Assembly (NCBI GenBank): GCA_023380955.1
Contig: JAMCTB010000075.1
Span: 1-15,866, forward strand
Direction of reading: 5' to 3'
DNA: 15,866 nt
Source: Chloroflexota bacterium
GTDB lineage: Bacteria; Chloroflexota; UBA6077
The notes below the pieces were generated by a model. That model searched no databases. It was given only the letters and a program-made list of their open reading frames with translations, and was not told the DNA's origin. A program made the translations under genes and the position numbers. Below, in pieces: positions 9,285 to 15,080 of the stretch. Within the stretch, counting starts at the first letter, position 1, and every line of letters begins with the position of its first letter.

Positions 9285-10562
9285 TTACGCCTCGGTTCCC
9301 GCAAGGGTCTTGCCGGCCTTGTGGCCGTTGCCGGACCGGTTCTCCATGGGGCCAAGCCCCGCCTCGGCCCGCAGGGCGGCCGCCTTGTCGGTGATCTCCC
9401 AGGGGGCGTCGATGTCGTTGCGACCGAAGTGGCCGTAGGCCGCGGTGGCCTTGTAGATGGGCCGGCGCAGCTGCAGGTGGTGGATGATGGCGGCCGGCCT
9501 CAGGTCGAAGTGCTTCTTGACCAGCTCCAGGATCTTGGCCGGGGCCACCTTCTCGGTGCCGAAGGTCTCGATCATGATGGACAGCGGCCTCGCCACGCCG
9601 ATGGCGTAGGAGATCTGGATCTCGAACCGCTCGGCCAGGCTGGCGGCCACCACGTTCTTGGCCACGTATCGGGCCATGTATGCGCCGGATCGGTCCACCT
9701 TCGTCGGATCCTTGCCGGAGAAGGCGCCGCCACCGTGGCGGGCCATGCCGCCGTAGGTGTCCACGATGATCTTGCGGCCGGTCAGGCCCGCGTCGCCCAT
9801 CGGGCCACCTATGACGAAGCGCCCGGTCGGGTTGACGTAATACTTGGTCTTGTCGTCCAGCATGTTGGCCGGGATGATCTGCCTGACGACCTCCTCCAGG
9901 ATGTCGGTGCGGATCTTCTCGTAGTCGGTGACCGGGTCGTGCTGGGCGGCGATGACGACGGTGTCGACCCTCTTCGGCTTGCCCTGGGAGTACTCCACCG
10001 TCACCTGGGACTTGCCGTCGGGCCTCAGGTAGGGGAGCACCTTCTCCTTGCGCACCAGCGACAGCTGCTTGCACAGCTTGTGGGCCAGGGAGATGGGCAG
10101 CGGCATCAACTCCTCGGTCTCGTTGCAGGCGAAGCCGATCATCATGCCCTGGTCGCCGGCACCGGTGGCCTCGATCGCCCTGTCCCACGCCTCGCCGGAT
10201 CTCACTTCCAGCGCCTTGTTCACGCCCTGGGCGATGTCCGGCGACTGCCCCTTGATGGAGACGATCACGCCGCAGGTCTCGGCGTCGAAGCCGTACTTGG
10301 CCCTGGTGTAGCCCACGTCCCTGACGGTGTTCCGAACGATCTCAGGGATGTCCACGTAGCAGTTGGTGGTGATCTCGCCGGCCACCAGAACCAGGCCGGT
10401 GGTAGCGGCGGTCTCGCAGGCGACCCGACCGTTGGGGTCCTGCTCGATGATCGCATCCAGCACGGCATCCGAGATCTGGTCGCACAGCTTATCCGGATGC
10501 CCTTCGGTGACCGATTCCGAGGTGAAGAAGCTCTGCTCGGCCGACATGAAGGTGTTGCTCAT
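9285..10562 (-). CDS. metK: S-adenosylmethionine synthetase (methionine adenosyltransferase)
   Basis: A 425-aa cytoplasmic enzyme forming SAM from methionine and ATP, releasing phosphate and pyrophosphate. Signature motifs are intact: TEGHPDK (19-25), GAGDQGM (134-140), GGGAFSGKD (277-285) and, near the end, YGHFGRND (376-383). The length is slightly above the usual 385-405 aa because of a Gly/Lys/Ala-rich tail (from about residue 405). The ATG at 10560-10562 has AGGAG seven bases upstream; longer readings of this frame run over ahcY and are not real. It is the last gene of the operon behind the SAM-I riboswitch, so its own product would lower its expression. A 39-nt hairpin separates it from ahcY, which may adjust the relative expression of the two. 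Confidence 0.97.
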   Translation of the reverse strand: MSNTFMSAEQSFFTSESVTEGHPDKLCDQISDAVLDAIIEQDPNGRVACETAATTGLVLVAGEITTNCYVDIPEIVRNTVRDVGYTRAKYGFDAETCGVIVSIKGQSPDIAQGVNKALEVRSGEAWDRAIEATGAGDQGMMIGFACNETEELMPLPISLAHKLCKQLSLVRKEKVLPYLRPDGKSQVTVEYSQGKPKRVDTVVIAAQHDPVTDYEKIRTDILEEVVRQIIPANMLDDKTKYYVNPTGRFVIGGPMGDAGLTGRKIIVDTYGGMARHGGGAFSGKDPTKVDRSGAYMARYVAKNVVAASLAERFEIQISYAIGVARPLSIMIETFGTEKVAPAKILELVKKHFDLRPAAIIHHLQLRRPIYKATAAYGHFGRNDIDAPWEITDKAAALRAEAGLGPMENRSGNGHKAGKTLAGTEA

Positions 10563-10582
10563 TCTCTCGCTCCTCTCTCTGC

Positions 10583-10621
10583 AGCCATCAGCTATCAGCC
10601 AGAAGCTGATGGCTGATGGCT
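10583..10621. repeat. AGCCATCAGC-type hairpin between ahcY and metK
   Basis: AGCCATCAGCTATCAGC (10583-10599) pairs with GCTGATGGCTGATGGCT (10605-10621) with one G-U-type mismatch around a 5-nt loop. It is related to the repeat at 13766-13796. It fills the ahcY-metK gap and is not followed by a U-run, so it is more likely a stabilising or processing stem than a terminator. Confidence 0.65.
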
Positions 10622-10624
10622 CAC

Positions 10625-11899
10625 TCACGTTCCCGATTCCCAGGAGGCCAGGTACTTGACCTGCTCGGGGGTTAGCACGTCGATGGACACGCCCATGGAC
10701 ACCAGCTTGAGCCGAGCGATCTCTCGATCTATCTCCAGCGGGACGTCGTAGACCTTCCTCTCCAGCTCTTTGCCCCGCTGCACCATGTACTCGGCTGCCA
10801 GCGCCTGGTTCGCAAAGCTCATGTCCATCACCGCGGCCGGATGCCCCTCGGCAGCTGCCAGGTTCACCAGCCGCCCCTCGCCCAGCAGGTAGACCCGGTG
10901 GCCGTCGGGGTAGCTGTACTCGTCCACGAACTCCCGGATCCGCCGCTTGGTCCTGGTGTCCCGCTCCAGTGCCGGAATGTTGATCTCGTCGTTGAAGTGG
11001 CCGGAGTTGGCCACGATGGCCCCGTCCTTCATGGCCGCGAGATGCTGGGCGTCGATGACGTTCAGGTCGCCGGTGGTGGTCACGAAGACGTCTCCGATGG
11101 GCGCCGCCTCGGCCATCGGCATCACCCGATAGCCATCCATCAGGGCTTCGAGCGCCTTGATGGGATCCACCTCGGTGACGATCACGTCCGCCCCCATCCC
11201 CTTGGCCCGCATGGCGAGACCCCGGCCGCACCAGCCGTAGCCGGCCACCACGAAGTGCCTGCCGGCCAACAGGACGTTAGTGGCTCGCAGGACCCCATCG
11301 ATGGTGCTCTGGCCCGTGCCGTAGCGGTTGTCGAAGAAGTGCTTGGTCATCGCCTCGTTGACGGCGACGATGGGGAACTCGAGGACCCCGTTGGCCTGCA
11401 TGCTGCGCAGCCGGATCACGCCAGTGGTGGTCTCCTCGGTGCCGCCGATCACGTTGGGCAGCAGCTCCTGGTGCTCCTTGTGAAGGGAGGAGACCAGGTC
11501 GGCCCCGTCGTCCATGGTTATCTGGGGCTTGCGGGCCAGGACCGACTCGATGTGCCGGTAGTAGGTGGAGTTGTCCTCCCACTTCTTGGCGAAGACCGAG
11601 ATCCCGTAGTCCACCACCAGGGAGGCGACGACGTCGTCCTGGGTGGAGAGGGGGTTGCTGGCGCAGAGATACACCTCGGCACCGCCGGCCTGCAGGGTTC
11701 TCGCGAGGTTCGCCGTCTCGGTGGTGACGTGGAGGCAGCCGCCGAGGCGAAGGCCTCGCAGCGGCTTCTCTCGCTCGAACCGCTCCCGGATCAGCCGAAG
11801 AACCGGCATCTGGATTTCGGCCCACTCGATCCTCAGCTTGCCCGTAGGGGCCAGGGAAAGGTCCTTGGCGTCGCTTTCAACCGGGACCAGCTTCGTCAT
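10625..11899 (-). CDS. ahcY: S-adenosylhomocysteine hydrolase (adenosylhomocysteinase)
   Basis: A 424-aa cytoplasmic enzyme that reversibly cleaves S-adenosylhomocysteine (SAH), the inhibitory by-product of methyl transfer, to adenosine and homocysteine, using tightly bound NAD. Seen: substrate-site His57 in GCLHVTTETANL, Asp130/131 in TMDDGADL, Glu156 in TEETTTG, Lys186 and Asp190 in MTKHFFDNRYGTGQS, the NAD loop GYGWCG (220-225) and His301 in NSGHFNDEI. It is the shorter form without the long insertion and C-terminal KxxHYRY tail of many bacterial and eukaryotic enzymes, ending LTPEQVKYLASW, as in archaea and thermophiles. The ATG at 11897-11899 has AGGAG eight bases upstream. It sits 43 nt after the kinase and 62 nt before metK in one operon. 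The reaction is pulled forward only if adenosine is removed, which makes the adjacent kinase notable. Confidence 0.97.
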   Translation of the reverse strand: MTKLVPVESDAKDLSLAPTGKLRIEWAEIQMPVLRLIRERFEREKPLRGLRLGGCLHVTTETANLARTLQAGGAEVYLCASNPLSTQDDVVASLVVDYGISVFAKKWEDNSTYYRHIESVLARKPQITMDDGADLVSSLHKEHQELLPNVIGGTEETTTGVIRLRSMQANGVLEFPIVAVNEAMTKHFFDNRYGTGQSTIDGVLRATNVLLAGRHFVVAGYGWCGRGLAMRAKGMGADVIVTEVDPIKALEALMDGYRVMPMAEAAPIGDVFVTTTGDLNVIDAQHLAAMKDGAIVANSGHFNDEINIPALERDTRTKRRIREFVDEYSYPDGHRVYLLGEGRLVNLAAAEGHPAAVMDMSFANQALAAEYMVQRGKELERKVYDVPLEIDREIARLKLVSMGVSIDVLTPEQVKYLASWESGT

Positions 11900-14819: not shown

Positions 14820-14894
14820 CGGTGCGGGATACCTCGCTAGGTAGCCACCGGTTGGGCGAGAGGATGGAATCGGAGGGGTTCGTCCTGCGGACAC

Positions 14895-14924
14895 AAAAAG
14901 GCTTCTCCATAGGAGAGAAGCCTT
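14895..14924 (-). terminator. Intrinsic terminator of the SAM-I riboswitch
   Basis: In the minus-strand transcript AAGGCUUCUC and GAGAAGCCUU form a perfect 10-bp stem with a 7-nt loop (UCCUAUG), running directly into a U-tract and then GUG. This is the expression platform. A GAGAG in the 3' strand of aptamer stem P1 (14935-14942) and a CUCUC in the 5' arm of the terminator can pair, giving a possible antiterminator. Confidence 0.9.
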
Positions 14925-14934
14925 GCATTACTCC

Positions 14935-15080
14935 CTCTCATCTTTCAGGACGGTGCCGTCCTGTCGGACTTGGCACCATGCCCACGCCGCCGCTGGATCG
15001 GTAACGGTCCAGCCCGTTCCCGCGGCAGGGCTGGTTGCCGGGCTTCATCGGGCCAGTCCCTCCACCACTCGCGATAAGAG
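14935..15080 (-). ncRNA. SAM-I (S-box) riboswitch aptamer
   Basis: The minus strand shows the S-box conserved core in order: P1 5' strand CTCTTATC (15073-15080), GGTGGAGGGACTGGCCC (15050-15066), GATGAAGCCCGGCAACC (15033-15049), GGTGCCAAGTCC (14966-14977), then TGAAAGATGAGAG, whose GATGAGAG (14935-14942) closes P1 with one wobble pair. The order and spacing match the kink-turn and SAM-binding junction of SAM-I. The P3 region (about 14978-15032) is longer than average. It lies between a promoter and the terminator upstream of mtnA. When SAM is bound P1 should be stable and the terminator should form, lowering mtnA-mtnP-pfkB-ahcY-metK expression. Confidence 0.95.

Follow-up and report, generated by a model that had tools for sequence, protein, structure and literature searches.

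A SAM-I riboswitch probably leads a five-gene S-adenosylmethionine turnover operon in a Chloroflexota bacterium

Introduction

Riboswitches of the SAM-I (S-box) class, which respond to S-adenosylmethionine (SAM), form in Bacillus subtilis and other Firmicutes a regulon of many separate operons; here and below, what is said of a cited paper refers to portions of its text. B. subtilis has 11 SAM-I riboswitches (PMC2258182), its mtnA and mtnK genes are S-box regulated (PMC5519356), and metK is under SAM-I control in Firmicutes (PMC4239095). In this work we examine a 15,866-nucleotide (nt) stretch of DNA from a Chloroflexota bacterium (contig JAMCTB010000075.1, referred to as the window), in which a SAM-I riboswitch precedes mtnA, mtnP, a PfkB-family kinase gene, ahcY and metK. 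The SAM-I OFF switch, a predicted one in the window, and the targets mtnA and metK are common to this locus and the S-box regulon, whereas in the window mtnA, ahcY and metK share one leader, together with the genes of a methylthioadenosine (MTA) phosphorylase and a nucleoside kinase.

Three further systems are close to this arrangement. The SAM-Chlorobi motif is likewise a leader RNA on metK and ahcY operons, but it is a different RNA, which showed neither SAM nor S-adenosylhomocysteine (SAH) binding in preliminary probing (PMC2864571), while that of the window is a standard SAM-I. SAH riboswitches and SahR regulons also control ahcY and other genes of the SAM cycle, SahR, unlike the SAH riboswitches, acting on metK as well (PMC4239095); both sense SAH, whereas ahcY of the window follows a SAM sensor. 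Finally, a SAM-I element upstream of a metagenomic mtnA (ykrS) was reported in 2007, with a single downstream protein and no cassette described in the portion concerned (PMC2211319), in contrast to the five-gene run of the window.

SAM riboswitch regulons have been catalogued in five Chloroflexi genomes (PMC3766115). The words ahcY, mtnA and metK are absent from the main text of that paper, and the cassette may already be listed in its supplementary gene lists. Our search of the open-library literature, which left supplements and RegPrecise aside, found no description of a joint SAM-I/mtnA-ahcY-metK cassette. Both mtnA and metK are known individually as SAM-I targets, and the window presents a standard SAM-I on a variant set of targets.

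Results

A complete SAM-I leader precedes the five genes

We consider it likely that a SAM-I OFF switch in the window heads a single transcript comprising at least five SAM-turnover genes. At the level of sequence, the aptamer, the terminator, the identities of the genes and their order in relatives argue for this. The features concerned are the following, in the order of transcription (scores are given as score/cut-off).

15108..15136 (-): promoter-like site TTGGCA-17-TATACT with an extended -10, 10 of 12 consensus bases, ending 27 nt before the aptamer
14935..15080 (-): SAM-I riboswitch aptamer (RF00162, 82.9 bits, E 1.1e-18, cut-off 44.4)
14898..14924 (-): intrinsic terminator stem-loop with an 11-pair stem, then a T-run; antiterminator pairing is possible between its 5' arm and the P1 3' strand
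13770..14819 (-): mtnA, S-methyl-5-thioribose-1-phosphate isomerase, TTG start (TIGR00512, 463.9/279)
12944..13750 (-): mtnP, S-methyl-5'-thioadenosine phosphorylase (TIGR01694, 312.3/274.85)
11943..12947 (-): nucleoside kinase of the PfkB family, substrate probably adenosine, GTG start (PF00294, 76.7/25.8)
10625..11899 (-): ahcY, S-adenosylhomocysteine hydrolase (TIGR00936, 644/497.6)
9285..10562 (-): metK, SAM synthetase (TIGR01034, 603.8/309.4)

A previous reading of this DNA from its letters alone (the sequence-only reading) had proposed a SAM-I aptamer and a terminator before mtnA and had called for a covariance search with RF00162. This search returned a match at 15080-14935 (-), nearly twice the gathering score, and the terminator is found at 14924-14898. 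The aptamer is complete, covering model positions 1-108, its P3 arm is enlarged, and SAM-I is the sole Rfam family match in the window; the riboswitch itself is an ordinary SAM-I, placed on an uncommon gene set. The terminator starts 10 nt past the aptamer and was equalled in none of 20 dinucleotide shuffles, and the leader folds better than its shuffled versions (z -2.5, 2 of 200 as good).

The region 6400-15866 contains 4 terminator-like sites, where shuffles have 4.1 on average, and 2 promoter-like sites, against 1.2 in shuffles. Both numbers are near chance, so that the case rests on position and conservation and not on count. A promoter-like site of at least 9/12 within 70 nt upstream was present in 20 of 28 leaders, compared with 2.7% of mononucleotide shuffles.

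The curated NCBIfam cut-offs are exceeded by MtnA, MtnP, AhcY and MetK, and the fifth gene belongs to the PfkB family. With the kinase gene started at the GTG at 12947, in a 4-nt overlap with the mtnP stop, the spacings of 19, -4, 43 and 62 nt proposed earlier are exact (13770/13750, 12944/12947, 11943/11899 and 10625/10562). For mtnA, the start is most likely TTG 14819 rather than GTG 14894, which lies in the terminator tail. Among 24 leaders inspected, the conserved mtnA start position could be located in 23, and 20 of these have a start codon there.

The gene order is kept in relatives

Two samples were compared with the window. The relative contexts are the best 80 of at least 571 confirmed stretches; their query alignment combined the window with 20 proteins out of a list of 120, for which 8000 candidates had been scored, and their taxonomic labels are those of the database records. 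The genome set (n=61), which stands in for the window organism, consists of G001 and 60 relatives; G001 is the genome of context L026, whose five cassette proteins are 75-85% identical to those of the window. The SAM-I scan of these genomes used stricter filters, by which weak aptamers may be lost, and genome completeness is not given, so that absences among the 61 genomes are soft.

The tallies of order and distribution include every one of the 73 SAM-I matches, even the three that score below the cut-off. Matches to ahcY and mtnA below the curated cut-off were excluded, apart from contig-end fragments of G012, G022, G002 and G031 (with two ahcY rows of G022 merged into a single one), and so were metK matches below theirs; gene runs were split at gaps above 7 kb. 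SAM-I occurs in 46/61 genomes over the cut-off and in 47/61 at E 0.001. Of the 73 matches, 19, in as many genomes, have mtnA within 400 nt, 4 head an ahcY-metK run that lacks mtnA, one of the 4 scoring below the cut-off, and 7 stand before metK; for the other 43, mtnA, ahcY and metK are all absent within 7 kb downstream, one of them (G028) being followed by the kinase gene and then the contig end. The single SAM-I of G001 is found at the mtnA-metK operon.

SAM-I, mtnA, ahcY and metK follow one another in this order on one contig in 15/61 genomes. The gene-order comparison proposed with the sequence-only reading therefore bears out the layout, which by its recurrence is real. It also overturns the view that mtnA first and metK last is unusual: this is the usual order, as metK closes the run in all 15 relatives that have it complete on a single contig. 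As for the idea, drawn from gene order alone, that salvage would be expressed above synthesis, nothing shows it. On the other side, 20/61 genomes carry the cluster without a preceding SAM-I, mtnA being grouped with ahcY in 18 and with metK in 2, a finding that weighs against a fixed partnership; the SAM-I link is thus not obligatory.

SAM-I also stands on other Chloroflexota genes: in contexts L171, L165 and L168 it precedes a threonine synthase gene (TIGR00260 over the cut-off in 3/3 scanned).

A predicted co-transcriptional OFF switch

In the proposed mechanism, SAM binding by the leader would hold P1, and the terminator would halt transcription ahead of mtnA. At low SAM, the P1 3' strand would pair with the terminator 5' arm and RNA polymerase would read through. 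Transcription attenuation is possibly over-represented among Chloroflexi riboswitches (PMC2258182).

Of 80 leaders scanned, among them that of the window, 73 have a terminator (another leader was too short for the scan); in the mtnA-first leaders, again with the window, it is found directly after P1 in 24/24. Furthermore, P1 3' strands pair with their own terminator 5' arm better than with those of others (mean -8.04 against -6.72, sd 0.24), a preference reached in 0 of 2000 permutations over 71 distinct leaders by a test that ignores kinship, so that shared ancestry can inflate it; terminator 3' arms hardly pair with the P1 3' strands (mean 0.01). Among the 24 mtnA-first leaders, 19 have an antiterminator that equals or exceeds P1 in stability, and 12 have a terminator hairpin whose stability exceeds that of the antiterminator. 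In the window leader, antiterminator and P1 are about equal (-9.9 and -9.7 kcal/mol).

The window leader itself is a weak case. The antiterminated state is absent from its minimum-energy folds, also when the 5' strand of P1 is blocked, and its P1-arm pairing is no better than with shuffled arms (98 of 200), two results that count against the proposed mechanism. The former would suit a decayed or SAM-insensitive aptamer whose downstream genes escape regulation by the leader, an explanation that we regard as highly improbable given the score of the complete aptamer, the invariable position of the terminator right after P1 in mtnA-first leaders and the own-arm pairing preference across leaders. 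For these leaders, and with less weight for the window, we infer a co-transcriptional OFF switch.

Continuity of the transcript from the leader to metK

The sequence-only reading had placed the whole run under one leader, and its claim is upheld by an OFF-type SAM-I before a co-directional five-gene run whose order is kept in relatives. A site scan of 6400-15866 found no promoter-like site between the five genes. One transcript of at least five genes would thus start ahead of the SAM-I OFF switch and extend to metK, its continuity being predicted from the DNA.

The riboswitch could instead govern mainly mtnA, mtnP and the kinase gene, with ahcY and metK expressed separately by means of internal promoters or of RNA processing at a hairpin. 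Several observations point in this direction and count against a continuous unit, the first of which is a structure in the ahcY-metK gap.

10583..10621 (-): hairpin with 17-nt arms and without a T-run, in the ahcY-metK gap

This hairpin before metK is formed by GCTATCAGC, which is repeated in two operon gaps (10583-10621 and 13766-13781), and it is the sole feature that might act on metK. Two terminator-like sites, at chance number, also lie inside mtnP and the kinase gene. Among relatives, the ahcY-metK gap measures 13-332 nt in 21 contexts (a 22nd, L170, is outside the gap limit); some gaps exceed 200 nt, and a promoter-like site of at least 9/12 is found in 3/21. The seven SAM-I matches directly before metK, and that of G054 between ahcY and metK, are in line with a separate control of metK. 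We nevertheless judge this division unlikely, because the window run has no internal promoter-like site, 18/21 relatives have no 9/12 site in the gap, several gaps are as short as 13-26 nt, and the gene order is kept. A single transcript from the leader to metK is therefore the reading that we retain.

Two observations concern the same gap. A repeat similar to the GCTATCAGC hairpin occurs in the ahcY-metK gap of L166, and the SAM-I of G054 (context L170), owing to its position, would control metK and not ahcY.

The kinase and the exchange of enzymes within the run

The label pfkB given to the third gene earlier stands as far as the family is concerned (PF00294); the protein is better read as a nucleoside kinase, its closest solved relative being a nucleoside kinase, and its substrate is probably adenosine. 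In four relatives, a different PfkB protein of adenosine-kinase type occupies the kinase place. A sugar kinase, either ribokinase-like or acting on the sugar from MTA or 5'-deoxyadenosine, seems to us quite unlikely. Two results speak against adenosine: none of the 17 listed models reaches its cut-off, NF041164 (nucleoside kinase) giving 56.1 of 450 bits, and many non-Chloroflexota loci have the kinase adjoining mtnP with no ahcY found. An open-library paper search that combined 3kd6, nucleoside kinase and Chlorobium tepidum gave no result.

Other places of the run are exchanged as well. A MetE-fold protein of about 350 amino acids takes the mtnP place, between mtnA and the kinase gene, in ten contexts (L172, L161, L186, L187, L194, L196, L197, L147, L150 and L169); in three of them, L169, L147 and L150, the protein has lost its likely zinc ligands and may be non-enzymatic. 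An archaeal-type SAM synthetase (PF01941) is found within the SAM-I cassette at L196:2582-3787 (-) and L187:5649-6863 (+), and G048, the genome of L187, also has a bacterial metK after ahcY.

These exchanges suggest for Chloroflexota a modular cassette of SAM turnover headed by a single SAM-I, with slot order kept and enzymes exchanged, in which the switch would set the whole activated-methyl cycle; we see the arguments for and against this as evenly balanced. The proposed slots would be mtnA; an MTA phosphorylase or a relative of folate-independent methionine synthase; an adenosine kinase of one of two types; ahcY; and metK, archaeal-type in some. A plasmid search with metK gave distant metK genes only and has no bearing on the question.

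Flanking genes and repeats

On either side of the run lie the following genes.

15162..15674 (-): apt, adenine phosphoribosyltransferase (TIGR01090, 227.2/185.85), just upstream of the riboswitch
8166..9149 (-): NAD-dependent epimerase/dehydratase-like gene after metK, no curated cut-off met

The apt gene is probably not under the riboswitch. It lies 220-380 nt ahead of the aptamer in 10/80 relative contexts and directly before mtnA in L012 and L031. The epimerase-like gene follows metK in 11/80 contexts, with matches at most 40 nt apart or overlapping in 6 of them, and the operon may extend past metK into this gene (9149-8166).

A long inverted repeat with 26-nt arms lies after metK (9178-9249). 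The sequence CGGGAGGGCGAG is a dispersed repeat, present at 2228, 6486 and 9178 (+) and at 6544 and 9238 (-), with long-repeat sites at 9178-9249, 2228 and 6486-6555. Farther away, a URO-D family protein (PF01208) encoded at 3597-4637 (-) adjoins a 2-hydroxyacid dehydrogenase at 2321-3313.

Discussion

The five products can be arranged around SAM. MetK would make it. SAH, the by-product of methylation, would be split by AhcY to give homocysteine and also adenosine, which the PfkB protein may then turn into AMP. From MTA, MtnP would release adenine and a sugar phosphate, the latter a substrate for isomerisation by MtnA, and Apt, encoded just upstream, could convert the adenine to AMP. The claim that the run clears both by-products has good support for SAH, through AhcY and the nucleoside kinase, and for MTA only as far as the product of MtnA; the later, methionine-forming steps are doubtful because acireductone dioxygenase is scarce among the 61 relatives, being over the cut-off in 3 and near full length only in G022. 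A complete methionine salvage is accordingly not accepted.

The MtnA product may have another fate. Class II aldolases are present in 46/61 genomes, including 14 of the 19 SAM-I-mtnA genomes, and an aldolase beside mtnA would suit an end resembling the dihydroxyacetone phosphate shunt. Such an aldolase adjoins mtnA only in G037 (partial match), G039, G051 and G060, as positions compared by eye indicate; as all four are without a SAM-I before mtnA, this end is not established.

An OFF switch also lowers clearance at high SAM and so is not a response to the by-products as such. With SAH hydrolase lowered at high SAM, SAH should rise and methylation would be damped. If the modular reading of the cassette is true, the SAM level sets the removal of SAH, an inhibitor of methylation, through a signal that differs from that of the SAH riboswitches acting on ahcY elsewhere. 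Furthermore, the cassette context offers a likely function, adenosine kinase, for a large PfkB subfamily named sugar or carbohydrate kinase in the sources. A known SAM sensor would then be wired, in these Chloroflexota, to the whole of SAM turnover and not only to methionine supply.

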